From a virus, in IMG/VR virus record IMGVR_UViG_3300019927_000058, positions 64,001 through 106,233 of that record: 42,233 nt of DNA, one strand, 5' to 3'. The notes under the pieces are model-generated. The model searched no databases, was not told the DNA's origin, and saw only the letters and a program-made list of their open reading frames with translations. Shown here piece by piece: positions 15,444 through 31,684 of this stretch; the stretch's first letter is position 1; the number at the start of each line of letters is the position of its first letter. A program made the position numbers and the translations under genes.

Positions 15444-15463
15444 CTTGTGGAATTGTCCACAAG
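15444..15463 (+). promoter_or_regulatory. Stem-loop H2
   Basis: CTTGTGG/CCACAAG, loop AATTGT, directly after TTTT; 9 nt to the ATG at 15473. Sits at the end of the structured-RNA region. Confidence 0.75.
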
Positions 15464-15472
15464 TGAACTATA

Positions 15473-15826
15473 ATGAACTTCGGAGCTAAAAACGACAAAG
15501 ACCGACAGTATAACACAATGCAAATGATCAAAGACTCAAACCCGGAAAAAGTCGAAAAAAGTACTTGGAATATGCTAAAACGACAATTTGATGAAGCATA
15601 TGAATGGTATGAAAACCGTGGAAATGCAGGAGATAACGTCCCTATTGACGAATTAGAAGCTTTGGGACATGCAATAGATTACATGAAAGTGAGTGATGTT
15701 ATTGAACACTCGTCAAATATTCTTAGTACCAAAATGCACCCAACAGCTAGGGACATTGTGGGGAATGTTGCAACACAAGCAATATACAACGTATGCGGTA
15801 AACGAGCGTACAAATACGAACAATAG
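15473..15826 (+). CDS. Hypothetical protein, first gene of central block
   Basis: 117 residues, positively and negatively charged, helical; contains WNMLKRQFDEAYEWYENRG. A candidate partner or processing factor for the RNA upstream only by position. Start set by stem-loop H2. No family recognised. Confidence 0.75.
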   Translation: MNFGAKNDKDRQYNTMQMIKDSNPEKVEKSTWNMLKRQFDEAYEWYENRGNAGDNVPIDELEALGHAIDYMKVSDVIEHSSNILSTKMHPTARDIVGNVATQAIYNVCGKRAYKYEQ

Positions 15827-15849
15827 AATAAAACAATCATTTAATTTCT

Positions 15850-15865
15850 GTATGGATAACCATAC
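15850..15865 (+). promoter_or_regulatory. Stem-loop H3, start codon inside
   Basis: GTATGG/CCATAC, loop ATAA. The only plausible in-frame start (ATG 15852) lies in the 5' arm. Confidence 0.7.
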
Positions 15866-15965
15866 ACACTATCACCGAAACGAAACGCCACAAGACTACT
15901 GTAAAAATTGTGATACCCTCCTAAATGGTGGGAAAAGTTGCCCAAATTGCGGTAATTGGCAATAA
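15852..15965 (+). CDS. Mini zinc-ribbon protein
   Basis: 37 residues: MDNHTHYH.. then Cys17-x2-Cys20 and Cys29-x2-Cys32 (CPNCG), a minimal zinc ribbon with a His-rich N-terminus. No ATG, GTG or TTG lies between the stem-loop and the first Cys, so translation must begin inside stem-loop H3, as also in the gene at 18719. Confidence 0.65.
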   Translation: MDNHTHYHRNETPQDYCKNCDTLLNGGKSCPNCGNWQ

Positions 15966-15992
15966 AAACTAAACAAACATTCAAAATTTTCC

Positions 15993-16005
15993 GAGGTGTT
16001 ACCTC
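15993..16005 (+). promoter_or_regulatory. Stem-loop H4
   Basis: GAGGT/ACCTC, loop GTT, after TTTTCC; 2 nt to the ATG at 16008. Confidence 0.65.
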
Positions 16006-16007
16006 AA

Positions 16008-16181
16008 ATGGTCAACAAACAACTAATAAATCACGTATTGTCAACAAATGAAGAAAAGTATAGTAATTGGGAATGTGACAATTATGGGCAATTGAAATGT
16101 CCTTGTGGTAATTGTATTGAAATTGATGGGAATTGTCCGAACGGTCATATTTCACCTGTAAGGCAAGAAGGTATGATTTAG
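16008..16181 (+). CDS. Small zinc-binding protein
   Basis: 57 residues with Cys22 and a CPCGNC cluster followed by CPNGH, a compact Cys-rich metal site. Its start is placed by stem-loop H4. Function unknown. Confidence 0.65.
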   Translation: MVNKQLINHVLSTNEEKYSNWECDNYGQLKCPCGNCIEIDGNCPNGHISPVRQEGMI

Positions 16182-16200
16182 TGAATAATCATTCAATTTT

Positions 16201-16220
16201 GATATGGATTATTCCATATC
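16201..16220 (+). promoter_or_regulatory. Stem-loop H5
   Basis: GATATGGA/TCCATATC, loop TTAT, after TTTT. It contains ATG 16204, which opens a 34-codon frame to 16308 in another phase; whether that is used is unclear. Confidence 0.65.
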
Positions 16221-16226
16221 CGTTAA

Positions 16227-16243
16227 CCAAATACGTAATTTGG
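16227..16243 (+). promoter_or_regulatory. Second stem-loop H6 close to H5
   Basis: CCAAAT/ATTTGG, loop ACGTA, 6 nt after H5; 18 nt to ATG 16262. It lacks the usual TTTT box of its own. Confidence 0.5.
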
Positions 16244-16261
16244 CTAAACAATTGTTCAATT

Positions 16262-16369
16262 ATGAACAACAATCAAAAAACTCCGCTAGGCAGCAAAGGC
16301 ATTGTTAACATTGAAGAAACAAGTAAAATCTTTTACACTGAACTAGCTGAAAAATACGATCAAAAATGA
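16262..16369 (+). CDS. Small hypothetical protein
   Basis: 35 residues (MNNNQKTPLGSKG..). Two alternating frames compete: this one and a 34-codon frame from ATG 16204 inside H5. I prefer this one because it overlaps the next gene by ATGA and reads as a balanced soluble peptide. Confidence 0.5.
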   Translation: MNNNQKTPLGSKGIVNIEETSKIFYTELAEKYDQK

Positions 16370-16455
16370 GTTACAAATACCCAATTCTTTGGGCAATTGC
16401 TGTATTTATTCCGTTTATATTTATGATGATTGTTTTATTTCTTCTTATGATTTAA
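16366..16455 (+). CDS. 29-residue single-TM peptide
   Basis: MSYKYP then an almost unbroken hydrophobic stretch of 23 residues: a one-helix membrane peptide. Coupled to the previous gene by ATGA. Such small TM peptides in viruses can act in membrane remodelling or host control, but the role here is unknown. Confidence 0.6.
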   Translation: MSYKYPILWAIAVFIPFIFMMIVLFLLMI

Positions 16456-16479
16456 TTTCTAAATCACTCAAATTTTCTA

Positions 16480-16495
16480 ATAGGTGTATACCTAT
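16480..16495 (+). promoter_or_regulatory. Stem-loop H7 overlapping start
   Basis: ATAGGT/ACCTAT, loop GTAT; the last two bases belong to the ATG at 16494. Confidence 0.65.
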
Positions 16496-16712
16496 GGCAA
16501 ATGATACAACCAAATACGAACGTATAGAAACAGAAAAACTAGACAAAATGAGTGAAAGACTTAGTATTAATATCGGTAAATGTGATCAAATGGCTAGTGG
16601 GGATATTAAAGATGAAAATTATAAACAAGCATACGAAAAATTGAGAGAAGAAATTGATATATTTTTAGATGAATTAAACGAAAATAAACAATTGAGTTTT
16701 GAAAGAGAATAA
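16494..16712 (+). CDS. Helical hypothetical protein
   Basis: 72 residues, nearly all predicted helix, Lys/Glu-rich with heptad-like repeats; may be a coiled coil. The start codon overlaps stem-loop H7. Confidence 0.7.
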   Translation: MANDTTKYERIETEKLDKMSERLSINIGKCDQMASGDIKDENYKQAYEKLREEIDIFLDELNENKQLSFERE

Positions 16713-16730
16713 AATACCCATATTATTTTC

Positions 16731-16744
16731 TAGGTGTTAACCTA
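16731..16744 (+). promoter_or_regulatory. Stem-loop H8 overlapping start
   Basis: TAGGT/ACCTA, loop GTTA; the last stem base is the A of ATG 16744. Confidence 0.65.
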
Positions 16745-16875
16745 TGAGAGAAGAAAATAAAATATGTCCAGTTTGTGCTAACAAATGTGGACATTTGTTA
16801 GTTGATAGTGATAAAAATGCATATCAATGTGACATATGTATGGGTATACATAATTTCACTGAAAGGTTAGGATAA
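16744..16875 (+). CDS. Mini zinc-ribbon protein
   Basis: 43 residues with Cys8-x2-Cys11, Cys15 and Cys29-x2-Cys32. Single zinc ribbon; the ATG is fused to stem-loop H8. Last gene before a 380-nt non-coding gap. Confidence 0.65.
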   Translation: MREENKICPVCANKCGHLLVDSDKNAYQCDICMGIHNFTERLG

Positions 16876-16877
16876 CC

Positions 16878-16897
16878 CCCCCTATTTTAAGTGGGGG
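16878..16897 (+). terminator. Possible terminator hairpin
   Basis: CCCCC/GGGGG stem with a 10-nt T/A-rich loop directly after the preceding stop. There is no clear downstream T-run, so assignment as a terminator is tentative. Confidence 0.35.
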
Positions 16898-16974
16898 CGG
16901 ATATATTGAAAACTGTTAGCTGAATTACAACTAAGATCCTGAAAAATATAAGGACATATTAACAACCTTATTTT

Positions 16975-16994
16975 GATATGGATATATCCATATC
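16975..16994 (+). promoter_or_regulatory. Orphan stem-loop H9
   Basis: GATATGGA/TCCATATC, loop TATA, a perfect 20-nt palindrome after CCTTATTTT. The usual promoter layout, but the internal ATG gives only a 13-codon frame (MDISISPN..). It may drive a non-coding transcript over the repeat region downstream. Confidence 0.6.
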
Positions 16995-17115
16995 TCCTAA
17001 TACTAAACTCAAAACCTAATACAAGTATAAGGTATCTCATGCAGTATTAGGTAATAAGGACATGAGTACACACCTTATACACACATATAAGGTTGTATTA
17101 GCATGTTAATACTCA
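16990..17115 (+). repeat. Inverted-repeat cluster with origin-like words
   Basis: ACCTAATAC/GTATTAGGT (17014-17022/17044-17052) and ACCTTATA/TATAAGGT (17072-17079/17086-17093) are perfect inverted repeats, followed by GTATTA/TAATAC. The same words (CCTTATA, GTATTAGG) are repeated in the AT-rich region 12700-13260, so one protein may recognise both sites. Confidence 0.6.
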
Positions 17116-17179
17116 AATAAAATACATGTCAAATTTCAAAAACAAATCAGAAAATAGCTGTAAAATCTGAAAAAGGTAA

Positions 17180-17210
17180 GGGGATTGGGTATATAATCTC
17201 GCATGGTTTT
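17180..17210 (+). promoter_or_regulatory. GGGGATT repeat element G1
   Basis: GGGGATT, 8 nt, then AATCTCGCATGGTTTT. Lies 35 nt before stem-loop H10. Confidence 0.7.
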
Positions 17211-17245
17211 ACGGTATAGGGGTTAAAATTGAAGAAATAATTTTC

Positions 17246-17259
17246 TAGGTGTAAACCTA
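17246..17259 (+). promoter_or_regulatory. Stem-loop H10 overlapping start
   Basis: TAGGT/ACCTA, loop GTAA; the last stem base is the A of ATG 17259. Confidence 0.65.
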
Positions 17260-17444
17260 TGACATACAAAACAATCAAAGGATTAGAAACTACTGAAAAA
17301 TACATAACTACTAAAGAAATTGTTGAAATTTCTTGTGAATCTTGTGGTTATGATAGAGGTATTTTGAGGTATTCAAGTTATGCTAGTACAGGTAGTGTTT
17401 TCTGTAATAATCCAAATTGCAAACATTTGATAGAAGAACTTTAA
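17259..17444 (+). CDS. Zinc-binding protein
   Basis: 61 residues with Cys-x2-Cys (CESCG, about 26-29) and C-N-x4-C (about 49-54): a zinc ribbon with a longer second knuckle. Start fused to stem-loop H10. Confidence 0.65.
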   Translation: MTYKTIKGLETTEKYITTKEIVEISCESCGYDRGILRYSSYASTGSVFCNNPNCKHLIEEL

Positions 17445-17462
17445 ACAATTTTCTAAATTTTG

Positions 17463-17481
17463 GTATGGGTTAATCCCATAC
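17463..17481 (+). promoter_or_regulatory. Stem-loop H11
   Basis: GTATGGG/CCCATAC, loop TTAAT, after TTTTG; 11 nt to ATG 17493. Confidence 0.7.
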
Positions 17482-17492
17482 ATGATTAACAA

Positions 17493-17834
17493 ATGAGTGA
17501 AAAACCAGACATTACACAAGAAGAGAGAGAAAAGTTTTGTAAAATGGCATATGAGTATGGTTATACGTATTTTGATCATACTTTTGCTGAATATGAAACT
17601 ATGGAAGATATTTCCGTTCTTTGTGATGAAACAAGTGGTAATTATTCCGAAAGTAAAATAATCCGTCATGTCGAGGAATATTACGGATTTGAAAGAGGTA
17701 AACATGATTGGGATATTTTCGGAATTTATGGTATTATCGAAGATATTGGAGTATGTTATGAAAAAGGTTGTAAAGACGCTTTAGATAATGAAGAATATAA
17801 CGTCGAAAGTATCAAACATATGTGGAATTACTGA
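17493..17834 (+). CDS. Hypothetical acidic protein
   Basis: 113 residues, Tyr-rich, with scattered Cys. No recognised family. Single gene behind stem-loop H11; ends in TGA. Confidence 0.7.
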   Translation: MSEKPDITQEEREKFCKMAYEYGYTYFDHTFAEYETMEDISVLCDETSGNYSESKIIRHVEEYYGFERGKHDWDIFGIYGIIEDIGVCYEKGCKDALDNEEYNVESIKHMWNY

Positions 17835-17857
17835 TTTAGATTATTCTCTTAAATTTT

Positions 17858-17875
17858 GGAAAGGTAAAACTTTCC
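17858..17875 (+). promoter_or_regulatory. Orphan stem-loop H12
   Basis: GGAAAG/CTTTCC, loop GTAAAA, after AAATTTT. No start codon or frame follows before the next stem-loop unit. Confidence 0.55.
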
Positions 17876-17905
17876 GCTATAAAAATTAAAAACTGTAGCA
17901 TAGTT

Positions 17906-17919
17906 ACCCCCTTGGGGGT
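17906..17919 (+). repeat. Perfect 14-bp GC palindrome
   Basis: ACCCCCTTGGGGGT, a perfect palindrome with a loop too small for RNA, so more likely a protein-binding site in DNA than a hairpin. Confidence 0.45.
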
Positions 17920-17928
17920 TAAATTTTA

Positions 17929-17948
17929 CCATAGGTATGTACCTATGG
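17929..17948 (+). promoter_or_regulatory. Stem-loop H13
   Basis: CCATAGGT/ACCTATGG, loop ATGT; 9 nt to ATG 17958. Confidence 0.75.
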
Positions 17949-17957
17949 GTGTTCAAA

Positions 17958-18101
17958 ATGAAAAGACCAAAATCGCTAATGCTTAATGATGAAGTAAAAG
18001 AATTGAAAGTAACTCAACAAACAGAAAATACGATTACTTTTTCTGATCAAAATACAGATATTACTTCAAATATGTGGTTTGATTTACAAAATGTGAGATA
18101 A
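17958..18101 (+). CDS. Small hypothetical protein
   Basis: 47 residues, basic N-terminus (MKRPKSL) then a Thr/Asn-rich body. Start placed 9 nt after stem-loop H13. The next unit has a nearly identical leader (CATAGG stem, GGTGTTCAAA spacer), suggesting a local duplication of the regulatory cassette. Confidence 0.6.
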   Translation: MKRPKSLMLNDEVKELKVTQQTENTITFSDQNTDITSNMWFDLQNVR

Positions 18102-18118
18102 GAAAATACAATATTTTA

Positions 18119-18137
18119 CCATAGGATAATCCTATGG
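18119..18137 (+). promoter_or_regulatory. Stem-loop H14
   Basis: CCATAGGA/TCCTATGG, loop TAA; 9 nt to ATG 18147. Confidence 0.75.
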
Positions 18138-18146
18138 GTGTTCAAA

Positions 18147-18398
18147 ATGAAACAAACACTAAAACAAGTCTTTGATAATGCAAAGTTTGTAAAATTCCAT
18201 CCTGAATTTGATAGTCGGTTAGCTGTATGGAATGGCGGGCATACTGTTAATTTTTACACTTTGCATTATGTGGAGGGCAATAAAGTAGAATTAGAAGAAT
18301 ATACCTGTATTAATGTTGGTTCTTTTGAAAACAATGAAGCAACATTAGAAGAGGTTAAAGACGGTATAGAAACTCAGTTTAACACTGAAGAATTTTAA
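18147..18398 (+). CDS. Hypothetical protein
   Basis: 83 residues, beta-rich middle (LAVWNGGHTVNFYTLHYVEG) and acidic C-terminal helix. No family recognised. The start at 18147 is 9 nt after H14; an in-frame ATG at 18138 touches the stem-loop and is less likely. Confidence 0.7.
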   Translation: MKQTLKQVFDNAKFVKFHPEFDSRLAVWNGGHTVNFYTLHYVEGNKVELEEYTCINVGSFENNEATLEEVKDGIETQFNTEEF

Positions 18399-18417
18399 AT
18401 AATATACTATATTTTGG

Positions 18418-18434
18418 TATGGGTTTAACCCATA
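18418..18434 (+). promoter_or_regulatory. Stem-loop H15
   Basis: TATGGG/CCCATA, loop TTTAA, after ATTTTGG, extended by a G.T(U) pair; 11 nt to ATG 18446. Confidence 0.7.
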
Positions 18435-18445
18435 TCTGTTTAATC

Positions 18446-18694
18446 ATGACAAAAACACAAACCCAAAAAGGAATTACCCAAATGTTTGAAGGTATGGAAA
18501 AAATTGCCATGAATGGTGGATATAAAGAAAGAGAAGAGCTATTGAATGCTCTTTATGAACTTTCATGGTTCGATAACTTTGGTTACGAATATTACCAGCA
18601 TAGGCTTACAATTGCACAAATGGCAATAGATGAAGGTATGAAGTATGAAGATATTCCTCAATTGTTGAGAGAAGAGCTAGGTATTGAAGAATAG
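18446..18694 (+). CDS. Hypothetical helical protein
   Basis: 82 residues, helical and acidic. An in-frame ATG at 18419 lies inside stem-loop H15; ATG 18446 fits the usual spacing and is preferred. Function unknown. Confidence 0.7.
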   Translation: MTKTQTQKGITQMFEGMEKIAMNGGYKEREELLNALYELSWFDNFGYEYYQHRLTIAQMAIDEGMKYEDIPQLLREELGIEE

Positions 18695-18716
18695 TTAGTC
18701 AAATACTCATATTTTG

Positions 18717-18732
18717 GTATGGATAACCATAC
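18717..18732 (+). promoter_or_regulatory. Stem-loop H16, start codon inside
   Basis: GTATGG/CCATAC, loop ATAA, identical to H3. ATG 18719 is in the 5' arm. Confidence 0.7.
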
Positions 18733-18976
18733 AATCCCAAAAGAAAGTATAGCAGAAAAACTATCTGTAAGGTACAATCCCGAAGCTATTGGGGAAATTG
18801 AAAAATACCCACCAAAGGGAGAATATTTTGTTACTTTGTACTTTGGAAATGATAGTTTTACAATGGCTAATTATTATAATGTAAAAATCGATGGGAAACT
18901 ATACGATTTTGAAATTTCAAATATTGCTAAAGCAATTGATGAAACTAATGTTACTGTAAAGATTAATGTACAGTAA
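18719..18976 (+). CDS. Hypothetical protein starting within stem-loop
   Basis: 85 residues, beginning MDNHTIPKES. No alternative start exists in the next 70 nt, so translation probably begins inside stem-loop H16. Central beta-rich segment (YFVTLYFGNDSFTM). Shares its first four residues with the gene at 15852 only because the stem-loops are identical. Confidence 0.65.
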   Translation: MDNHTIPKESIAEKLSVRYNPEAIGEIEKYPPKGEYFVTLYFGNDSFTMANYYNVKIDGKLYDFEISNIAKAIDETNVTVKINVQ

Positions 18977-18997
18977 TTAAACAAACGTTTATTTTGG

Positions 18998-19015
18998 TAT
19001 GGGATTATTCCCATA
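18998..19015 (+). promoter_or_regulatory. Stem-loop H17
   Basis: TATGGGA/TCCCATA, loop TTAT, extended by a G.U pair, after AAACGTTTATTTTGG (BRE/TATA-like); 12 nt to ATG 19028. Confidence 0.75.
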
Positions 19016-19027
19016 TCTGTTAAAACA

Positions 19028-19489
19028 ATGAGTGAACTAACACTTTCCGAAGCTAAAGAAAAGGTCAAGAATCAAGAAGAAAGCATTACCAAAATTATTG
19101 ATCCTAATGATTTAATTCATCAGGATGTAGAAAGTTGGGATAATGTGGATATTGATAAGCTAAAAGACGAATTGTATGGTTCTATTGGTGATGCTTGGAC
19201 ATACCCACATTCACACCCATATGCTTCAATGATCGAAAGTATAGCTGTTAACCAGTTTGTTGAAGATATGCAAAGAATTCCCTTTGAACACCTTAACCCT
19301 GAAATTTTCAAGGGTCCGGAGGATGCAAATGTTGAAGGGTACTGGTTGTATGATCAATCAAGAGAAGAGGTTAGAAATGTAGTGTATGAATGGAAAGACG
19401 ACATTGAGTTTTTCCATGAATATGAAGATAATGTGCGTATGGAAATTGATTCGGCAATTTTGGACGCTAGAATTGAAGACTTAGAATAA
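19028..19489 (+). CDS. Hypothetical acidic protein
   Basis: 153 residues, one of the longer proteins of this sub-block, acidic, mostly helical with a His/Pro/Tyr-rich patch (TYPHSHPYAS). No family recognised. Confidence 0.75.
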   Translation: MSELTLSEAKEKVKNQEESITKIIDPNDLIHQDVESWDNVDIDKLKDELYGSIGDAWTYPHSHPYASMIESIAVNQFVEDMQRIPFEHLNPEIFKGPEDANVEGYWLYDQSREEVRNVVYEWKDDIEFFHEYEDNVRMEIDSAILDARIEDLE

Positions 19490-19510
19490 ATCTCTATTCT
19501 TATTATTTTA

Positions 19511-19530
19511 GCATAGGTGTAAACCTATGC
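19511..19530 (+). promoter_or_regulatory. Stem-loop H18
   Basis: GCATAGGT/ACCTATGC, loop GTAA, after TTATTTTA; 9 nt to ATG 19540. Confidence 0.75.
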
Positions 19531-19539
19531 GTGTTAAAA

Positions 19540-19857
19540 ATGAAAGAACACATCGAAACCATTGATAATATGGACATTTCAGATAGTGAAAAGGTACAAA
19601 TGCACAAAAATGTAGTGCAAAATAAACGTGATTATCTGAATAATGTGGGTAATTTAATTAAAAATAAAATTAATGAAGATTTAGATCCTTACGTCGAACA
19701 TACACACCAAGGATTGAATCTTAGATTTACCCCAAGTAATCAACAAACAGTTAAAGAAATTAAAGCAATTGCCAAATATCACGGTCTTAATTTGGTATCT
19801 GAGAATAAAACAAACGTGAATAGTAAAATCACTTGGCTTAGGTTTACTGTAGAATAA
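19540..19857 (+). CDS. Hypothetical protein
   Basis: 105 residues; helical first half, then LRFTPSNQQTVKEIKAIAKYHGL and ITWLRFTVE, an alternating strand-helix-strand pattern as in small RNA-binding or ferredoxin-like folds. No firm family. Confidence 0.7.
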   Translation: MKEHIETIDNMDISDSEKVQMHKNVVQNKRDYLNNVGNLIKNKINEDLDPYVEHTHQGLNLRFTPSNQQTVKEIKAIAKYHGLNLVSENKTNVNSKITWLRFTVE

Positions 19858-19878
19858 TCAAATAAACGTCTTATTTTT

Positions 19879-19899
19879 GTATAGGGTTAAACCCTATAC
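19879..19899 (+). promoter_or_regulatory. Stem-loop H19
   Basis: GTATAGGG/CCCTATAC, loop TTAAA, after AAACGTCTTATTTTT; 8 nt to ATG 19908. Confidence 0.8.
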
Positions 19900-19907
19900 T
19901 GATTAAA

Positions 19908-20039
19908 ATGCAAAAACGAATTAACAAAAATATCAAGAATTACAGTATTAGTATCGGTTTTGAAACACATGCAGATAAAAATCACCTTACAAACAAAATA
20001 CAACTTTTCCATTTTGATTTTAACATTTACAAGGAATAA
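19908..20039 (+). CDS. Small basic protein
   Basis: 43 residues (MQKRINKNIK..), one of few basic proteins here; alternating polar/hydrophobic C-terminus (IQLFHFDFNIY). May bind nucleic acid. Single-gene unit. Confidence 0.6.
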   Translation: MQKRINKNIKNYSISIGFETHADKNHLTNKIQLFHFDFNIYKE

Positions 20040-20059
20040 TTAAGCGAATGTCTTATTTT

Positions 20060-20080
20060 GGTATGGCATTATGCCATACC
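20060..20080 (+). promoter_or_regulatory. Stem-loop H20
   Basis: GGTATGGC/GCCATACC, loop ATTAT, after GCGAATGTCTTATTTT; 9 nt to ATG 20090. One of the longest perfect stems. Confidence 0.8.
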
Positions 20081-20089
20081 TGATTAATA

Positions 20090-20356
20090 ATGAATCAAGA
20101 AAAACAAAACTTCATAGAAGCATTAGAAAATAACGAATATGCTGAATATTCACTAGATAATGAACATACGTTAATTACAGACATGGATAGTATGCCATAT
20201 GTTCATGTATCTAATGAAAATTATGAAAGTCATGAAAAAATTATAGAATTCTTGGAAAATCAGATATTGGATATATTCACTTGGGATAACTCGGAAATTT
20301 ACACACAACAAAATTCAACATTCATGGATTTTTACGGTATTAGAACAACTTATTAA
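20090..20356 (+). CDS. Paralogue family A, member 1
   Basis: 88 residues. The N-terminal pattern NFIEALENNEYAEYSL..ITDMDS..PYVHVSNENYESHEKI is shared with the proteins at 21926 and 27411: F-I-x-A-[VL]-[RE]-x-N/D-x-Y, then L-[VI/T]-L/V-I-T-D, then an acidic segment with PYV/PFL. Three diverged copies in 7 kb indicate a virus-specific family. Role unknown. Confidence 0.75.
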   Translation: MNQEKQNFIEALENNEYAEYSLDNEHTLITDMDSMPYVHVSNENYESHEKIIEFLENQILDIFTWDNSEIYTQQNSTFMDFYGIRTTY

Positions 20357-20375: not shown

Positions 20376-20394
20376 GGATAGGTTTAACCTATCC
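20376..20394 (+). promoter_or_regulatory. Stem-loop H21
   Basis: GGATAGG/CCTATCC, loop TTTAA, after ATATTTTA; 9 nt to ATG 20404. Confidence 0.8.
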
Positions 20395-20676: not shown

Positions 20677-20695
20677 CTATGGGTTAAACCCATAG
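20677..20695 (+). promoter_or_regulatory. Stem-loop H22
   Basis: CTATGGG/CCCATAG, loop TTAAA; 6 nt to ATG 20702. Confidence 0.75.
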
Positions 20696-20956: not shown

Positions 20957-20972
20957 GTAGGTGTTAACCTAC
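20957..20972 (+). promoter_or_regulatory. Stem-loop H23
   Basis: GTAGGT/ACCTAC, loop GTTA, after ATATTTT; 2 nt to ATG 20975. Confidence 0.7.
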
Positions 20973-21203: not shown

Positions 21204-21220
21204 GTAGGGTATAACCCTAC
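21204..21220 (+). promoter_or_regulatory. Stem-loop H24
   Basis: GTAGGG/CCCTAC, loop TATAA, after TTTTT; 11 nt to ATG 21232. Confidence 0.7.
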
Positions 21221-21379: not shown

Positions 21380-21399
21380 GGTATGGAATAAATCATACC
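21380..21399 (+). promoter_or_regulatory. Orphan stem-loop H25
   Basis: GGTATG/CATACC, loop GAATAAAT, after TTTTATTTT. The internal ATG meets a stop after two codons and no frame follows. Confidence 0.6.
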
Positions 21400-21473: not shown

Positions 21474-21491
21474 GTATGGTACTAACCATAC
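21474..21491 (+). promoter_or_regulatory. Orphan stem-loop H26
   Basis: GTATGG/CCATAC, loop TACTAA, after CTATTTT. The internal ATG gives a nine-codon frame only; no gene follows for 430 nt. Confidence 0.6.
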
Positions 21492-21900: not shown

Positions 21901-21917
21901 CGGGGAAATATTCCCCG
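21901..21917 (+). promoter_or_regulatory. Stem-loop H27
   Basis: CGGGGAA/TTCCCCG, loop ATA, after ATTTTA; 8 nt to ATG 21926. Confidence 0.75.
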
Positions 21918-22277: not shown

Positions 22278-22293
22278 CCAAGGTGTTCCTTGG
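22278..22293 (+). promoter_or_regulatory. Stem-loop H28
   Basis: CCAAGG/CCTTGG, loop TGTT, after ATTTT; 2 nt to ATG 22296. First of four nearby CCAAG-type stems. Confidence 0.7.
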
Positions 22294-22558: not shown

Positions 22559-22579
22559 CTCCGGTTAACCATACCGGGG
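22559..22579 (+). promoter_or_regulatory. Stem-loop H29 with G.U pair
   Basis: CTCCGGT/ACCGGGG, loop TAACCAT, one U.G pair; 7 nt to ATG 22587. Confidence 0.65.
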
Positions 22580-22875: not shown

Positions 22876-22890
22876 CAGGGATTATCCCTG
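22876..22890 (+). promoter_or_regulatory. Stem-loop H30
   Basis: CAGGGA/TCCCTG, loop TTA, after ATATTTTA; 9 nt to ATG 22900. Confidence 0.75.
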
Positions 22891-23407: not shown

Positions 23408-23421
23408 CAAGGGCAACCTTG
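23408..23421 (+). promoter_or_regulatory. Stem-loop H31 with GCAA loop
   Basis: CAAGG/CCTTG around a GCAA tetraloop, after TTTATTTTC; 9 nt to ATG 23431. Confidence 0.65.
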
Positions 23422-23617: not shown

Positions 23618-23634
23618 CCAAGGGTTATCCTTGG
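23618..23634 (+). promoter_or_regulatory. Stem-loop H32
   Basis: CCAAGG/CCTTGG, loop GTTAT; 15 nt to ATG 23650, the longest spacer seen for a clear assignment. Confidence 0.7.
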
Positions 23635-23895: not shown

Positions 23896-23911
23896 CCAAG
23901 TATAAACTTGG
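23896..23911 (+). promoter_or_regulatory. Stem-loop H33
   Basis: CCAAGT/ACTTGG, loop ATAA, after ATATTTT; 7 nt to ATG 23919. Compared with H28 and H32, both arms changed together (G to T and C to A). Confidence 0.75.
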
Positions 23912-24183: not shown

Positions 24184-24199
24184 CAGGGTACTATCCCTG
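24184..24199 (+). promoter_or_regulatory. Stem-loop H34
   Basis: CAGGG/CCCTG, loop TACTAT; 11 nt to ATG 24211. Confidence 0.7.
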
Positions 24200-24488: not shown

Positions 24489-24519
24489 GGGGATTGAATG
24501 AATAACCTCGCATCATTTT
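24489..24519 (+). promoter_or_regulatory. GGGGATT repeat element G4
   Basis: GGGGATT, 8 nt, AACCTCGCATCATTTT, abutting stem-loop H35 directly. Confidence 0.75.
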
Positions 24520-24537
24520 GGATGGAATAGTCCATCC
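24520..24537 (+). promoter_or_regulatory. Stem-loop H35
   Basis: GGATGGA/TCCATCC, loop ATAG. ATG 24538 touches it; ATG 24547 is 9 nt away, the usual spacing. Confidence 0.75.
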
Positions 24538-24546
24538 ATGGTAAAA

Positions 24547-24990: not shown

Positions 24991-25009
24991 TGCATGGGTA
25001 AACCATGCA
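24991..25009 (+). promoter_or_regulatory. Stem-loop H36
   Basis: TGCATGG/CCATGCA, loop GTAAA, after TATATTT; 8 nt to ATG 25018. Confidence 0.75.
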
Positions 25010-25428: not shown

Positions 25429-25446
25429 CTGTGGATTTATCCACAG
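25429..25446 (+). promoter_or_regulatory. Stem-loop H37
   Basis: CTGTGGA/TCCACAG, loop TTTA, after TTCTTTT; 7 nt to ATG 25454. Confidence 0.75.
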
Positions 25447-25844: not shown

Positions 25845-25863
25845 GAGCAGGTTTATCCTGCTC
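25845..25863 (+). promoter_or_regulatory. Stem-loop H38
   Basis: GAGCAGG/CCTGCTC, loop TTTAT, after CCTTTTATTTTA; 10 nt to ATG 25874. Confidence 0.8.
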
Positions 25864-26018: not shown

Positions 26019-26037
26019 GGACAGGTACATCCTGTCC
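26019..26037 (+). promoter_or_regulatory. Stem-loop H39
   Basis: GGACAGG/CCTGTCC, loop TACAT, after TTTATTTTA; 11 nt to ATG 26049. Confidence 0.8.
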
Positions 26038-26282: not shown

Positions 26283-26302
26283 CTTGTGGTTGATTCCACA
26301 AG
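26283..26302 (+). promoter_or_regulatory. Stem-loop H40
   Basis: CTTGTGG/CCACAAG, loop TTGATT, same stem as H2; 9 nt to ATG 26312. Confidence 0.8.
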
Positions 26303-26847: not shown

Positions 26848-26864
26848 GGTTGCATAATGCAACC
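26848..26864 (+). promoter_or_regulatory. Stem-loop H41
   Basis: GGTTGC/GCAACC, loop ATAAT, after ACATTTT; 7 nt to ATG 26872, the start of a frame broken by two TGA codons. Confidence 0.7.
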
Positions 26865-26871
26865 TGATAAA

Positions 26872-26976
26872 ATGAAAACACAGAAACTCAATTGTCCTAA
26901 GTGTGATAATACAAAATTCTGAAAACACATGACAAAAAGCTGACTATGCACAGAATGTGGATACAAAGCATCATAA
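26872..26976 (+). pseudogene. Zinc-ribbon gene with two in-frame TGA codons
   Basis: 35 codons: MKTQKLNCPKCDNTKF-TGA-KHMTKS-TGA-LCTECGYKAS. Reading each TGA (26920, 26941) as Trp restores a complete CxxC..CxxC zinc ribbon in one frame, with correct start, stop and stem-loop promoter. Either two TGG codons mutated to TGA and the gene is dead, or UGA is read through here. Other genes in the block use TGA as a stop, so there is no general recoding. Confidence 0.6.
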
Positions 26977-26982
26977 AAGCAA

Positions 26983-27013
26983 GGGGATTAAACACATAAT
27001 CTCGCATGGTTTT
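26983..27013 (+). promoter_or_regulatory. GGGGATT repeat element G5
   Basis: GGGGATT, 8 nt, AATCTCGCATGGTTTT, starting 6 nt after the broken zinc-ribbon gene and 19 nt before stem-loop H42. Confidence 0.75.
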
Positions 27014-27032
27014 GACACCACGGTATCATTTT

Positions 27033-27053
27033 CTTGTCGGGTCAACCGACAAG
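27033..27053 (+). promoter_or_regulatory. Stem-loop H42
   Basis: CTTGTCGG/CCGACAAG, loop GTCAA, after CATTTT; 6 nt to ATG 27060. Confidence 0.8.
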
Positions 27054-27059
27054 GATATA

Positions 27060-27353
27060 ATGAATCAGGCAAACTTCAATAAGATAGGCGAAATTGTAAG
27101 GGACTTTGAAGAAAACGCCGGTACTCGATTCCTCAATGTCAAAGAAGCATTTTGGAATAGAGGGGCAGACGGTGAAGAAATTGTTTATGAAGTTCATGTA
27201 GTAATTGAAGAAAGTAAAGAAATTACTGCCAGAGTTAATACTTACTGCTATCCTGCGGCAGACTTCGGACGTGAGCGTGGATTGTATCTATATGATACTG
27301 TAGTTAATTGGAATGATGAGACAGTCACTCTCCGATTCCGCTTTGAAGAGTAA
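27060..27353 (+). CDS. Hypothetical protein
   Basis: 97 residues: an N-terminal helix, then beta strands (YEVHVVIEESKEITARVNTY, TVTLRFRFEE). No family recognised. ATG 27060 chosen over 27006, which precedes the stem-loop. Confidence 0.7.
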   Translation: MNQANFNKIGEIVRDFEENAGTRFLNVKEAFWNRGADGEEIVYEVHVVIEESKEITARVNTYCYPAADFGRERGLYLYDTVVNWNDETVTLRFRFEE

Positions 27354-27382
27354 CAAGTAACCAAAACCCTTTTATTTATTTT

Positions 27383-27401
27383 CCCACTTATTGTTAGTGG
27401 G
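27383..27401 (+). promoter_or_regulatory. Stem-loop H43
   Basis: CCCACT/AGTGGG, loop TATTGTT, after CCTTTTATTTATTTT; 9 nt to ATG 27411. Confidence 0.75.
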
Positions 27402-27410
27402 GCTATAACC

Positions 27411-27737
27411 ATGAGCCAAGAAGAAACTGAATTACCGAAAGAAGAGCTTGCCTTCATCCGAGCAGTGAGGGCCAACAACTACGAGCATCTTCATCTTCAA
27501 GATGATCTGGTATTGATTACAGACATTGAAGGAGATGAAGAGTTTGAACCATTTCTTTCTGTTGAAAATGATGATTATGATGAAGAATTCATTGGCGAGA
27601 AACTAGAAGAGTTAGATTGGTTGGATTGGGAAAATATTGAGATAGTTGAAGAGACAGGGATCAACTTTGATTTCTGTGATATTTTCGATGCAAAACTAAA
27701 TGACCCTGTGGTTCCTAATGCGGACGGGGAAGAATAA
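27411..27737 (+). CDS. Paralogue family A, member 3
   Basis: 108 residues. AFIRAVRANNYEHLHLQDDLVL then ITDIEG and EPFLSVENDDYDEEFIGEKL match the proteins at 20090 and 21926. Strongly acidic C-terminus. Function unknown; its copy number suggests a useful virus-specific role. Confidence 0.75.
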   Translation: MSQEETELPKEELAFIRAVRANNYEHLHLQDDLVLITDIEGDEEFEPFLSVENDDYDEEFIGEKLEELDWLDWENIEIVEETGINFDFCDIFDAKLNDPVVPNADGEE

Positions 27738-27741
27738 AGCC

Positions 27742-28086
27742 ATGGGGGTATCGAAATACTCACCGTCACTCGAAATTCCAAGAGATATTGAGAATGAATA
27801 CCGGACCACTAATCACTTCATGGAGAGGTTGAAGTACAGGACTGATCCAGAGCCAAGCAAAGAAATTGTCTTTGAGACAATGGAAAATGGTCAGTTCAAA
27901 ACAACACACATCTCCGATAGATTCATCTGTGAACAAGAGATAGATGAAATAACGTGGTGGATAATTGTAGAGATGAACGATGAGGCATTCGTAAAGGATA
28001 ATAAATACCATGCTTTAGTTAGCGTGTACGCGCCGAATCAACATCCAGAGAAACACAAAACAGTCTTTGAGGCTGATATACAATGA
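27742..28086 (+). CDS. Hypothetical protein
   Basis: 114 residues. HFMERLKYRTDP.. then ETMENGQFKTT and a Trp-rich strand (ITWWIIVEM) recall toxin-like BrnT/RelE-size folds, but no catalytic set is evident. Starts 4 nt after the previous stop; the TGA overlaps the next ATG. Confidence 0.65.
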   Translation: MGVSKYSPSLEIPRDIENEYRTTNHFMERLKYRTDPEPSKEIVFETMENGQFKTTHISDRFICEQEIDEITWWIIVEMNDEAFVKDNKYHALVSVYAPNQHPEKHKTVFEADIQ

Positions 28087-28298
28087 CATTCAAAAATAGT
28101 AAACTAAACACGACGGACGACCGAACATGGACATTCAACATCGATGAAATTGATGCATTCCGCCTTGATGCTCCAGCAAAAGCAAAGAAGGCTGTAGCAG
28201 AATCAGTTGATGATACTGATTATAGGAGCCTACGAGCAAAGTTAGTCAATAGTGGTCAATTCGGAGATACATATGTAACCGTAGTTGAGGTGCTATAA
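28083..28298 (+). CDS. Small hypothetical protein
   Basis: 71 residues with an Ala-rich helix (DAPAKAKKAVAESV). Coupled to the gene upstream. No family recognised. Confidence 0.65.
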   Translation: MTFKNSKLNTTDDRTWTFNIDEIDAFRLDAPAKAKKAVAESVDDTDYRSLRAKLVNSGQFGDTYVTVVEVL

Positions 28299-28301
28299 AT
28301 A

Positions 28302-28580
28302 ATGACTAACGACGAACTCACCGAAAATTTTGATAACATCCGCGCAGTGTGGTGTTCCAAATGCAAATTATGGTACGGGCCTATGGATGGTTGTCTCGAA
28401 CACGAAGATGCAATTAACGTGGGATTAATTCCAATACAAGAACTGGAAGAGTTAGAAAAAGAATGGAATGAAGCGGCGGAAGTAATTAAAACAGACGAAA
28501 CAATAGATGCTCCGGGTTATGAAAGAGCATTGAGCAAGGCAAATAGTGAACTTCGTGAGTTGATTGAAAAATATGAGTGA
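28302..28580 (+). CDS. Hypothetical protein with CxxC-C motif
   Basis: 92 residues: WCSKCKLWYGPMDGC..H at 17-33 may bind zinc; then a long acidic helix. Overlaps the next gene by 8 nt. Confidence 0.7.
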   Translation: MTNDELTENFDNIRAVWCSKCKLWYGPMDGCLEHEDAINVGLIPIQELEELEKEWNEAAEVIKTDETIDAPGYERALSKANSELRELIEKYE

Positions 28581-28848
28581 ATCAACAATCGAAAGCGCCA
28601 ACCGGGAACGCGAAGATATGAACGCTGATTGGATGGAATGGCTTGAGTACGTGCTTGAGACAGATCCAGAAGTTTTGAACGAGAATGGATTGCGGAATAT
28701 TGCACGACTCTTGGCAAAACAAAAACAACAGAATGATGAACTACAAAATTTGATTAAGAGGTGGCGTAATCCGCCCAGTGATGTTCCTGATGTAGCAGTT
28801 GAGTTAGTTGAAGTATGCGCTGATGATTTAGAAGAAGTGATAGAATAA
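28573..28848 (+). CDS. Helical hypothetical protein
   Basis: 91 residues, helical with a Lys/Gln-rich middle (LLAKQKQQNDELQNLIKRW). No family recognised. Last gene of its operon. Confidence 0.7.
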   Translation: MSESTIESANREREDMNADWMEWLEYVLETDPEVLNENGLRNIARLLAKQKQQNDELQNLIKRWRNPPSDVPDVAVELVEVCADDLEEVIE

Positions 28849-28864
28849 TGAACAAACTATATTT

Positions 28865-28884
28865 CACGGGGCCTACCCCCGGTG
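28865..28884 (+). promoter_or_regulatory. Stem-loop H44, bulged
   Basis: CAC-GGGG/CCCC-(G)-GTG, loop CCTAC, with a one-base bulge; 7 nt to ATG 28892. Confidence 0.65.
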
Positions 28885-28891
28885 AACAATA

Positions 28892-29188
28892 ATGACATGC
28901 ACGCAATGCAATCAGGATGCAATGTACGACCAGAGGAATGGGAAGCGATGTGCCAACTGTGGTCATGTCGAACAACCTACTCTTGGTCTAATCGATGAAC
29001 GACCAACTAAACCCTATGATGCTGTCTGTGGGGAGGTTATTGAAGAATGGCGAGAACATGATAACCAAGAGCCAAAAGGAGTTAAAAATCTCTGTAACGA
29101 TGGTAGCTGTTGTTCGTTTAATCCTACAACAATGAGACAATTAGAAGACGGAACATGGATTGCAGTATGTACTACACATGACAAATAA
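28892..29188 (+). CDS. Zinc-ribbon protein
   Basis: 98 residues with CTQC (3-6), CANC (20-23) and later cysteines near 68, 73 and 74, so one or two zinc sites. Function unknown. Confidence 0.7.
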   Translation: MTCTQCNQDAMYDQRNGKRCANCGHVEQPTLGLIDERPTKPYDAVCGEVIEEWREHDNQEPKGVKNLCNDGSCCSFNPTTMRQLEDGTWIAVCTTHDK

Positions 29189-29294
29189 ATGTAAGCAGTG
29201 TGGTGGACCGATAGAGAACGATAATGAAGAATTCTGTCAGTTGAAGTGCAGAGTAAAATGGTATAAAAATCAAAATAAAAGTGAGACAGCATGA
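29178..29294 (+). CDS. Mini zinc-binding protein
   Basis: 38 residues with Cys5-x2-Cys8 and Cys20-x3-Cys24, resembling MYM/FCS-type fingers (EFCQLKCR). Overlaps the previous gene by 11 nt and the next by ATGA. Confidence 0.6.
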   Translation: MTNKCKQCGGPIENDNEEFCQLKCRVKWYKNQNKSETA

Positions 29295-29470
29295 CAAAAC
29301 CTACTCCTGAATACGATATTGGCGACCGAGTTGGCATTCCACATATCAATACATACGGCGAAGTATCTGAGCGATGGTGGAGTGATAATAATAAGAGTTG
29401 GATCTATCGAGTCTATCGCAGTGGAGATGGGGGAGTGAAAATCTACCAAGAAAAGAATCTGAATCAATAG
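29291..29470 (+). CDS. Small SH3-like protein
   Basis: 59 residues: YDIGDRVGIPHINTYGEVSE then WIYRVYRSGDGG, the strand pattern of a small KOW/SH3-like barrel. Role unknown. Confidence 0.65.
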   Translation: MTKPTPEYDIGDRVGIPHINTYGEVSERWWSDNNKSWIYRVYRSGDGGVKIYQEKNLNQ

Positions 29471-29492
29471 CTGAGAAAACGTTTTATATTTT

Positions 29493-29508
29493 GGGCTGGT
29501 AACAGTTC
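29493..29508 (+). promoter_or_regulatory. Stem-loop H45 with two G.U pairs
   Basis: GGGCTG/CAGTTC, loop GTAA, after CGTTTTATATTTT. It pairs only if two G.U pairs are allowed, which favours RNA folding; 8 nt to ATG 29517. Confidence 0.6.
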
Positions 29509-29516
29509 ATAACACC

Positions 29517-30047
29517 ATGCCAAAGAAAACTAAGAAGGAATACGAGACTGTAGAGAAAGAAATCAAGTATACTGAGTGTGACGTACCGGGTTGTTTTCAC
29601 ACAGATGAAGAGAAAGAACTAATCGAGTTGGCAGTAAATCCAAGATATACAGTAACAACAGAGGAAAGACCTACTATTGTTGCCGAATTCGATGATTATA
29701 TGGAAGCGGACAAGTGGGTTTATAGTGAAGAGAAAAAGTTGAGAGACAGTAAGATTTCTCACGGGTTCGATGATGAAATATCATACCACGGTGGTTATAC
29801 TACAATGAAACAAGCAACGGAAGCAAGGTCTGATGCTTCATTCTTTGTCTGTCAAGATTGTTTAAAGAATCACTTCGATGCAGTCCCCGATAGATATAAT
29901 CCAGAACAGGTAAGTGAGATCGATTCAAAGAAAGGACGGCTTGTTATCACACAAGAAATCAACCCTATACTGCCACTTCCAACATGGCTCTTAATAGGAA
30001 TGATAATTATCAATATGCTAATCCTCTATACAATCGCAATATTTTGA
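29517..30047 (+). CDS. Zinc-binding protein with C-terminal membrane anchor
   Basis: 176 residues: a charged N-terminal helix, a CDVPGCFH motif (21-28), a CQDC pair (112-115) with downstream His, and a C-terminal hydrophobic helix of about 22 residues. The layout suggests a tail-anchored cytoplasmic zinc domain at the membrane. No family recognised. Confidence 0.7.
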   Translation: MPKKTKKEYETVEKEIKYTECDVPGCFHTDEEKELIELAVNPRYTVTTEERPTIVAEFDDYMEADKWVYSEEKKLRDSKISHGFDDEISYHGGYTTMKQATEARSDASFFVCQDCLKNHFDAVPDRYNPEQVSEIDSKKGRLVITQEINPILPLPTWLLIGMIIINMLILYTIAIF

Positions 30048-30056
30048 AAACAGATA

Positions 30057-30087
30057 GGGGATTGTTCATTATATCTCGCATGGTTTA
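30057..30087 (+). promoter_or_regulatory. GGGGATT repeat element G6
   Basis: GGGGATT, 8 nt, TATCTCGCATGGTTTA, just after a stop and 49 nt before stem-loop H46. Confidence 0.7.
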
Positions 30088-30136
30088 GAAAAGAGATACC
30101 AAAAAATACTTAACCCCACGATAAGAATGATATTTT

Positions 30137-30155
30137 CACAGGCGCAATGCCTGTG
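30137..30155 (+). promoter_or_regulatory. Stem-loop H46
   Basis: CACAGGC/GCCTGTG, loop GCAAT, after ATATTTT; 10 nt to ATG 30166. Confidence 0.8.
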
Positions 30156-30165
30156 TGGATACAAT

Positions 30166-31242
30166 ATGAGTCAAAATAACGTTCAAGTTGGAACGAAAGA
30201 ACTAGGGGCTATCGCTGATGAAGATGATAACCCAGACGAGGTTATCGGATTCCTCTCGTTCAGCACAACGGGAGAACTGAATGTACCGCGTGGGTGGCTT
30301 CTTGAGCAGTGGGAAGAATACGAACTGCCCAACCGACTTCTCCCCACCGAAACAACGAATTGGCAGGCGTACAGACGGACTCTCCAGTATCTCAAGGAAC
30401 AGACGGAGTACCTAAAATACTCTGTCTACAACGATCATTACGAGCAAGAGTTTGACTGTGAGTTAGAAATCAAGAAAAGCAATGAAATGGGAAGCAATGT
30501 GTTTCTCGTCTATGCAAATACATTCCTTCCAGAAGAAATTTCAGGTGAACAAGGCGGAACGTGGAATGAAGAACGTGTGGGTATGTTCGACTTCTACCGC
30601 CCGGAAAATAGCGATGCAGACGGACGACTATTCACCAATCGAGAAGTGGATGAAGATAATGCACACTTCGATCAAGTAACTGCTCTCTTCAAGGAAGCAC
30701 GGGAAGTAGAAAAAGAGATGCGGCAGAGTCACAATTTCAGTGATCTTAACAATATCCTTGAAAAATATCGGAACGTGATTGCTGATGCAGTTGAGATTCG
30801 ACGTTCGGTTTATTTCGTTCCCGTCATGTATGAAGAAACTCTGGAAGGACTAATGACTGTATGGGGGAAGATGAACCAGTTCAAGGAAGGAGGTGAACCG
30901 ATTCGTATTGACCGGACTCCAGTTGTGGATATGAAGGAACAGCGAGAACTTGTTGCTTCGCGTGTTCGTGATAAACTGGAAGAGATGGTCGATGATATTG
31001 TCAGTGAAGTTGTTGGTGAGTTTGAAGATAATGCTGATAAAACAGCAGATGAAGCTGCTAATGAAATCATGGACCAGTTGGCCGATGGAGAGTCTGTTGA
31101 ATCAACCTACAATCAACTTCTTGGTCTTCGGCTTTCGATTAAGGAAATGCTTGAAGATCAGCGAGAAGAATTGCAAGAAGAGTCTGAGGAAATTATTGAA
31201 AATATCCTCAATCAGCAGAAGTTTGATGAACTAGAACAATGA
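30166..31242 (+). CDS. Conserved-type protein of the AAA/VWA cluster (DUF6744-like?)
   Basis: 358 residues. Two parts: a mixed N-terminal half with RRSVYFVPVMYEETLEG near residue 220, and a long charged C-terminal helix region (about 250-350), probably coiled coil. Large phages and haloviruses with a CobS/MoxR-like ATPase often encode a similar protein nearby, and the fold recalls DUF6744, but I cannot confirm this. ATG 30166, 10 nt after H46, is preferred over 30127. Confidence 0.7.
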   Translation: MSQNNVQVGTKELGAIADEDDNPDEVIGFLSFSTTGELNVPRGWLLEQWEEYELPNRLLPTETTNWQAYRRTLQYLKEQTEYLKYSVYNDHYEQEFDCELEIKKSNEMGSNVFLVYANTFLPEEISGEQGGTWNEERVGMFDFYRPENSDADGRLFTNREVDEDNAHFDQVTALFKEAREVEKEMRQSHNFSDLNNILEKYRNVIADAVEIRRSVYFVPVMYEETLEGLMTVWGKMNQFKEGGEPIRIDRTPVVDMKEQRELVASRVRDKLEEMVDDIVSEVVGEFEDNADKTADEAANEIMDQLADGESVESTYNQLLGLRLSIKEMLEDQREELQEESEEIIENILNQQKFDELEQ

Positions 31243-31436
31243 ACAATTTAACACAAATAGACTTAGGGGGCTATGAGGGAAGTTTTAGTTGTCCAAATTG
31301 TGGTAATTCAATCAATATAAAACAAGGGAATAACAGTGACATTTTTGAATGTCGCAAATATAAAATAGGCCCGGATGAATGGTTGGGCTGTGGTAAAGAA
31401 TGGGAAGTGTATGCCAAAGAAGTTACTGATAAATAA
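31239..31436 (+). CDS. Zinc-ribbon protein
   Basis: 65 residues with CPNCG (18-22) and C38 ... C51: a zinc ribbon of DNA/RNA-binding type. ATGA overlap upstream. Confidence 0.7.
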   Translation: MNNLTQIDLGGYEGSFSCPNCGNSINIKQGNNSDIFECRKYKIGPDEWLGCGKEWEVYAKEVTDK

Positions 31437-31438
31437 CA

Positions 31439-31636
31439 ATGAAAATGAGTAAAACCTGTCAGAACTGTGGTAATGCTGTTTCAAATAACTTCGCTCGCGT
31501 GTGTGGAGATAATGATGGAAATGTATACCATTGTATGAATTGTATTCCAAATGAAGAAGGAGGCAGAGAACTTCTACGACGTGGAGCAGCAGCGTATGAA
31601 GACCTTGAAGTAGCGAAGGCACGGATTGAACTGTAA
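31439..31636 (+). CDS. Zinc-ribbon protein, DUF7563-like
   Basis: 65 residues: CQNCGNAVSNNFARVCGDNDGNVYHC..C closely recalls the haloarchaeal DUF7563 family (a CxxCG knuckle, then VS/T..FARVFGDN, then CxxC), here followed by an acidic helix. Either ATG (31439 or 31445) could start it. Supports a haloarchaeal origin. Function unknown. Confidence 0.72.
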   Translation: MKMSKTCQNCGNAVSNNFARVCGDNDGNVYHCMNCIPNEEGGRELLRRGAAAYEDLEVAKARIEL

Positions 31637-31651
31637 GTAAAGAAAAACGAA

Positions 31652-31684
31652 AGCCTTTTATTTTGGCAAAGAGTATTCTTTGCC
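31652..31684 (+). promoter_or_regulatory. Canonical promoter with stem-loop H47
   Basis: CGAAAGC-CTTTTATTTT is a textbook BRE/TATA, followed at once by GGCAAAGA/TCTTTGCC, loop GTAT (31665-31684), and 10 nt to ATG 31695. Shows that the T-rich box before the stem-loops can be a true TATA box. Confidence 0.8.

Follow-up and report, generated by a model that had tools for sequence, protein, structure and literature searches.

Perfectly paired stem-loops with variable arms adjoin the TATA-like boxes of a small-gene block in a putative haloarchaeal virus

We analysed a 42,233-nucleotide stretch of DNA from a salt-lake virus (the window, positions 64001-106233 of the 106,233-base IMG/VR virus record IMGVR_UViG_3300019927_000058) and found a family of stem-loops at nearly every transcription-unit start in a block of about 50 small genes on the plus strand (15400-31750; coordinates are those of the window unless stated otherwise). 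The stem-loops lie directly behind the T-run of a TATA-like box, and their arms differ from copy to copy while staying paired. We prefer to read the element as a promoter module that acts on DNA and through which a regulon of small genes would be switched together, a reading to which we give about even chances.

The family far exceeds what base composition would produce. A perfect hairpin of at least 5 bp begins 0-4 nt after 41 of the 100 T-runs on the plus strand of 15400-31750, against a mean of 1.13 hairpin-bearing T-runs (maximum 4) in 100 dinucleotide shuffles of the same block. This rules out chance hairpins in A/T-rich sequence, the outcome that was to refute the original prediction of such a family. 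On the opposite strand, in the remaining window and in the other 64 kb of the genome, hairpin frequency equals chance. We catalogued 44 perfect elements, with stems of 5-9 bp and a repeat span of 13-21 nt (Table 1). In the 39 that have a downstream open reading frame (ORF), the stem starts 0.7 ± 0.9 nt, the dyad centre lies 9.6 ± 1.05 nt and the hairpin ends 18.5 ± 1.9 nt from the end of the T-run, and the most frequent ATG distance from that point is 29 nt. The fixed layout proposed originally thus holds for the T-run and the stem behind it; stem length varies more than the 5-8 bp expected, and four hairpins (16975, 17858, 21380 and 21474) have no ORF of at least 25 aa downstream. These four may mark decayed genes or small RNAs.

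The element also follows operon structure, as had been claimed. By reading of the gene list, 38 of about 40 genes with an upstream gap of at least 20 nt have a hairpin, versus 0 of the 11 genes that overlap their predecessor or follow it almost directly (Fisher test, p = 6e-9, with counts slightly conservative). The elements were listed as perfect stems, so that the strict pairing within stems is partly due to selection, which does not affect the count at gene starts; this selection discarded few gene starts, since 38 of about 40 have an element. We rejected intrinsic termination of the preceding gene as the main role because the T-run lies before the stem, and because elements 15444 and 21901 come after long non-coding stretches.

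The original prediction held that both arms change together, and this is what the copies reveal when compared within this one genome (they are not orthologues). There are 41 distinct left arms among the 44 elements. With positions numbered from the loop, the stems have G-C at position 2 in 38 of the 44 elements and at position 3 in 29 of them. At positions 4-7 the four pair types are almost equally frequent (pair entropy 1.8-1.97 of 2 bits) and all pairs are Watson-Crick, where shuffling right arms between elements gives an expected pairing of 26-32%. Among eight elements of the same geometry, picked as perfect, we counted 16 doubly changed cells and no one-sided change, with a covariation score of 0.898 versus 0.251 ± 0.071 when shuffled and at most 0.184 when partners were slid; MAFFT alignments mixing geometries were out of register and were not used. 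Elements 25845 and 26019, for example, have similar flanks, and their arms (GAGCAGG...CCTGCTC and GGACAGG...CCTGTCC) differ by two doubly changed base pairs. Similarity is higher between nearby copies than between distant ones (p = 0.0004; outer positions, p = 0.0002), which makes local duplication followed by paired divergence the likely origin of the family. Folded as DNA, the elements reach -5.8 kcal/mol versus -0.7 when shuffled.

The surroundings of the stems are those of promoters. The TATA-like box (TATTTT) adjoins the stem, with A at -5 in 86% and T at -4 to -1 in 93-100% of elements. Strong matches to the B recognition element (BRE) plus TATA stand directly against the stem at 20060, 25845, 27383 and 31665, and the best matches cluster at the T-run. 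Hairpin-free promoters of the same virus read like CGTAACTCTTTTATT and mostly have 22-25 nt between the end of TATA and the ATG, a spacing expected of leaderless or near-leaderless haloarchaeal genes (PMC4983044). In the halovirus HF2, mapped starts place the TATA box at -26 to -19 (PMC8707807); with this spacing, the stem would end close to the predicted start site and therefore lie outside the mRNA. Genes of the long class have no ATG less than 23 nt from the box, and a Shine-Dalgarno 4-mer lies between stem and ATG in 0 of 31 of them versus 4 of 11 operon-internal genes.

In the mechanism that we propose, a weak BRE and the TATA box would be followed by a perfect inverted repeat filling the interval between TATA and start (about -20 to -1), and the repeat would act on DNA, at the site where the TATA-binding protein (TBP), transcription factor B (TFB) and RNA polymerase have to engage the promoter and melt it. 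The G-C pairs at positions 2 and 3, together with arms that are free but paired, suggest recognition of a dyad or hairpin whose minimal core is GG...CC, instead of one fixed operator sequence, the copies having presumably spread by local duplication and later diverged by paired changes. Only tentatively do we go further and suggest that about 40 host-type TATA promoters of an archaeal virus form a regulon in which DNA pairing is recognised instead of sequence, the hairpin with its GG...CC core being either extruded or read as a dyad. If true, free arms would allow 44 promoters in 16 kb without homologous repeats.

Several observations weigh against action on DNA. In six genes the ATG follows the box by just 14-18 nt, and every one of these close-ATG genes carries AGGTG in left arm plus loop, 7-11 nt before the ATG, versus 1 of 38 others; a Shine-Dalgarno-like sequence would matter only if the stem were transcribed, although the motif may be common to these genes through shared descent. 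The only plausible ATG of genes 15852 and 18719 lies within the stem (elements 15849 and 18717); start codons inside two stems had been remarked on originally. The leaders of 5-11 nt implied here are rare in Haloferax (PMC4983044). In the long class the ATG tracks the stem end with a slope of 0.83, which simple indels would also give; this comparison of ATG spacing, suggested originally, does not separate the DNA and RNA readings. Finally, Pfam recognised no regulator, TBP, TFB or RNA polymerase in the scanned part of the virus proteins, the left-arm proteins being only partly covered; most scanned proteins are of unknown function. Several small proteins have weak matches to TFIIB-type zinc ribbons (PF08271, best 2.1e-6). 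The virus also encodes a Holliday junction resolvase of archaeal type (PF01870, 1e-23); cruciforms could be among its substrates.

The original prediction left two readings in competition, a DNA palindrome and a 5' RNA hairpin. The former fits better, given canonical BRE plus TATA sequences against the stem and the HF2 spacing, and we judge action on DNA roughly twice as probable as action on RNA, although the long and close-ATG classes may differ. A hairpin in the mRNA leader could control how translation begins or how stable the mRNA is; in the close-ATG class it would do so by masking AGGTG. The regular placement of that motif and the two ATGs within stems point this way, as does RNA folding (-9.6 versus -1.6 kcal/mol shuffled), and read-through RNA, known in HF2 (PMC8707807), would include the stems anyway. 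Yet the TATA box stands against the stem and leaves no room for an upstream start, and the element has no match among known RNA families in Rfam. G-U pairs had been cited in favour of RNA. The few internal exceptions to Watson-Crick pairing are indeed G-U (18418/18998, 22561 and the imperfect copy 29492-29509), but about 5 such pairs versus 299 Watson-Crick ones are too few for strong support, and RNA helices tolerate G-U. On balance we think an RNA hairpin unlikely as the main explanation. A narrower form of the DNA reading is an ordinary sequence-specific operator, in which a dimeric regulator would read GG...CC half-sites and the outer symmetry would be inherited or kept by the mutation process. 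The core at positions 2 and 3 would suit such a protein, and the dyad of halovirus HGTV-1 is sequence-conserved. Archaeal repressor sites usually lie between TATA and start. What makes this operator possible but rather doubtful is that positions 4-7 lack a consensus yet pair without exception, a constraint that a base-reading dimer does not impose, and that no DNA-binding regulator was recognised among the scanned proteins.

Two further explanations concern how the copies arise or are kept. Template switching during replication can perfect imperfect palindromes with little need of selection; the perfect Watson-Crick arms seen here, the paired changes of several bases between neighbours and the near absence of one-sided changes are what it yields (PMC8794818). 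It leaves unexplained why the elements keep to a single block, a single strand and the interval between TATA and start, and likewise why the core is conserved. We consider it quite improbable as the whole explanation, but it could work together with selection and help to keep the arms perfect. The elements might instead be recombination modules, repeated promoter stem-loops for gene shuffling like the early-promoter and stem-loop modules (PeSLs) of phage T4. The block's many small genes, which lack known relatives and have a module apiece, would fit this idea, which was proposed for HGTV-1 by analogy with T4, according to the account in PMC3950731. Sequence-diverse copies are, however, poor substrates for homologous recombination, and we find this role very improbable.

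Table 1. Stem-loop elements of the window, written as left arm-loop-right arm, with the genes behind them
Element	Position	Strand	Downstream gene and remarks
CTTGTGGA-attg-TCCACAAG	15444..15463	+	gene 15473
TGTATGG-ataa-CCATACA	15849..15866	+	ATG of 37-aa gene in stem (15852)
GAGGT-gtt-ACCTC	15993..16005	+	gene 16008, close-ATG class with AGGTG
GATATGGA-ttat-TCCATATC	16201..16220	+	first of three hairpins before gene 16262
ATAGGT-gtat-ACCTAT	16480..16495	+	gene 16494, close-ATG class
TAGGT-gtta-ACCTA	16731..16744	+	gene 16744, close-ATG class
GATATGGA-tata-TCCATATC	16975..16994	+	no downstream ORF
TAGGT-gtaa-ACCTA	17246..17259	+	gene 17259, close-ATG class
GTATGGG-ttaat-CCCATAC	17463..17481	+	gene 17493
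GGAAAG-gtaaaa-CTTTCC	17858..17875	+	no downstream ORF
CCATAGGT-atgt-ACCTATGG	17929..17948	+	gene 17958
CCATAGGA-taa-TCCTATGG	18119..18137	+	gene 18147
TATGGGT-tta-ACCCATA	18418..18434	+	gene 18446; extends via G-T
GTATGG-ataa-CCATAC	18717..18732	+	ATG of gene 18719 in stem
TATGGGA-ttat-TCCCATA	18998..19015	+	gene 19028; extends via G-T
GCATAGGT-gtaa-ACCTATGC	19511..19530	+	gene 19540
GTATAGGGT-taa-ACCCTATAC	19879..19899	+	gene 19908
GGTATGGCA-tta-TGCCATACC	20060..20080	+	gene 20090; adjoining BRE+TATA CGAATGTCTTATTTT
GGATAGGT-tta-ACCTATCC	20376..20394	+	gene 20404
CTATGGGT-taa-ACCCATAG	20677..20695	+	gene 20702
GTAGGT-gtta-ACCTAC	20957..20972	+	gene 20975, close-ATG class
GTAGGGT-ata-ACCCTAC	21204..21220	+	gene 21232
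GGTATG-gaataaat-CATACC	21380..21399	+	no downstream ORF
GTATGGT-acta-ACCATAC	21474..21491	+	no downstream ORF
CGGGGAA-ata-TTCCCCG	21901..21917	+	gene 21926
CCAAGG-tgtt-CCTTGG	22278..22293	+	gene 22296, close-ATG class
CCGGT-taaccat-ACCGG	22561..22577	+	gene 22587; extends via T-G
CAGGGA-tta-TCCCTG	22876..22890	+	gene 22900
CAAGG-gcaa-CCTTG	23408..23421	+	gene 23431
CCAAGG-gttat-CCTTGG	23618..23634	+	gene 23650
CCAAGT-ataa-ACTTGG	23896..23911	+	gene 23919
CAGGG-tactat-CCCTG	24184..24199	+	gene 24211
TGGATGGA-atag-TCCATCCA	24519..24538	+	gene 24547 (or 24538)
TGCATGG-gtaaa-CCATGCA	24991..25009	+	gene 25018
CTGTGGA-ttta-TCCACAG	25429..25446	+	gene 25454
GAGCAGG-tttat-CCTGCTC	25845..25863	+	gene 25874
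GGACAGG-tacat-CCTGTCC	26019..26037	+	gene 26049
CTTGTGG-ttgatt-CCACAAG	26283..26302	+	gene 26312
GGTTGCA-taa-TGCAACC	26848..26864	+	only very short ORF downstream
CTTGTCGG-gtcaa-CCGACAAG	27033..27053	+	gene 27060
CCCACT-tattgtt-AGTGGG	27383..27401	+	gene 27411; BRE+TATA CAAAACCCTTTTATT upstream
CGGGG-cctac-CCCCG	28867..28881	+	gene 28892
GGGCTG-gtaa-CAGTTC	29492..29509	+	gene 29517; imperfect, two G-T pairs
CACAGGC-gcaat-GCCTGTG	30137..30155	+	gene 30166
GGCAAAGA-gtat-TCTTTGCC	31665..31684	+	gene 31695 (CobS-like AAA+); adjoining BRE+TATA CGAAAGCCTTTTATT
CTCTCA-tta-TGAGAG	8506..8520	+	gene 8527; doubtful outlier, stem ~7 nt from T-run

Of the copies outside the block, the one previously placed at 8506-8520 is doubtful; a clear one, CCGTGTGT-ctcta-ACACACGG, lies outside the window at genome positions 58541-58561, behind CGTAAGTCTTTTAA and before a 686-aa gene. 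Within the block, three consecutive hairpins (arms GATATGGA, CCAAAT and TTGTTCA; 16201-16269) precede the 35-aa gene 16262, and a non-coding gap of about 500 nt holds three degenerate CTTAAG-TCTTTCCATAG...CTATGG copies (21605-21762) with the look of decayed promoters. A second repeated element, AGGGGATT-N8-10-ATCTCGCATGGTTTT, occurs in six copies (17178, 21834, 24150, 24488, 26982 and 30056) upstream of hairpin promoters at the starts of gene groups; a DNA-pattern scan of viral contigs gave no match to it. Genes 20090, 21926 and 27411 are three small paralogues (37-40% identity to the first) with no match in phages. Ahead of the block, about 3.5 kb (11935-15470) are nearly free of ORFs and show a changed base skew and long perfect hairpins (e.g. 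14841-14861 and 15223-15243).

The genome encodes tape measure, portal and large terminase proteins together with RtcB, SpoVR-like, CobS-like and CobT-like proteins, thymidylate synthase and ERCC4. The CobT-like and DUF6744 proteins match, at about 30% identity, only the Haloarcula siphoviruses HVTV-1, HVTV-2, HCTV-1, HCTV-5 and HCTV-16 (Druskaviridae). Judging from these similarities, the genome most probably belongs to a tailed haloarchaeal virus that is distant from every isolate; its G+C content is roughly 30-42% versus 57-59% in those siphoviruses. Searches of phages with megablast and tblastn, seven scans of viral contigs (five by protein, two by DNA pattern) and one genome scan revealed neither a closer relative nor one with the block, so that all the covariation is between copies inside a single genome. 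These searches recovered solely distant Druskaviridae-type relatives, all without the element; the matches of one viral-contig scan were unrelated contigs.

The original prediction knew of no archaeal virus with such a regulon, but a precedent exists. In HGTV-1, most ORFs of one genome arm are reported to be preceded by a motif of TATA plus inverted repeat, likened to T4 PeSLs (Sencilo et al. 2013, as cited in PMC3950731). HGTV-1 and the present virus, itself a probable halovirus, share a TATA-like box and an inverted repeat before most ORFs of a region with many short genes under their own promoters. We examined 25 candidate copies in the HGTV-1 genome: the repeat is conserved in sequence (CTCCTCGT-ggc-ACGAGGAG), often imperfect, and flanked by one TATA box 7-8 nt upstream and a second immediately downstream. 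The present element, in contrast, is variable in sequence, perfect and adjoins its box. A covariance model, as suggested originally, found 15 places in the virus's own genome at E-values up to 0.1 and no match in 15 other halovirus records, HGTV-1 and HF2 included; these viruses have a higher G+C content and the T-run is part of the model, so this absence concerns the present version of the element and not every hairpin promoter. The T4 PeSLs, as far as the secondary citation describes them, are likewise repeated modules in small-gene regions, but are promoter-terminator composites for gene shuffling.

Other systems resemble the family in single traits. The intergenic repeats of HF2 are proven halovirus promoters, and one of them, IR4.5, contains an inverted repeat of 9 bp close to the start region (PMC8707807); they are few and sequence-conserved, without a general hairpin, and the present elements do not match the conserved 58- or 29-bp repeats of classes I and II. 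The extended start-associated sequences (ESAS) of Cluster K mycobacteriophages are inverted repeats that closely precede many non-structural genes, but these 17-bp elements are sequence-conserved within a genome and their arms do not covary (PMC3203893); their pattern of a 17-bp consensus plus a 13-bp start-associated sequence (SAS) at the start codon is absent here, with no consensus arm among the 44. Recognition of the pairing itself would have a parallel in phage N4, whose early promoters for the virion RNA polymerase have a conserved core, other stem bases being free if paired (PMC4496689). A conserved core and variable paired positions recur here, and the short inverted repeat of N4 lies upstream of the start, as the present one would with its predicted start. 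N4, however, has three such promoters and a giant virion RNA polymerase, whereas here there are 44, with a TATA box; no polymerase of that type (~3500 aa) is encoded in the genome, where no ORF longer than that of a tape measure protein of 1365 aa was found. TATA plus inverted repeat before ORFs having been described in HGTV-1, what is new here is how many elements there are, the perfection of their arms despite variable sequence, and their position against the TATA box. Promoter elements are normally read by sequence, and a large free-but-paired family in the archaeal TATA-to-start interval would make structure-read promoters testable outside phage N4. Its 44 copies in one genome are a ready-made mutational series, which also bears on how perfect palindromes persist in evolution.

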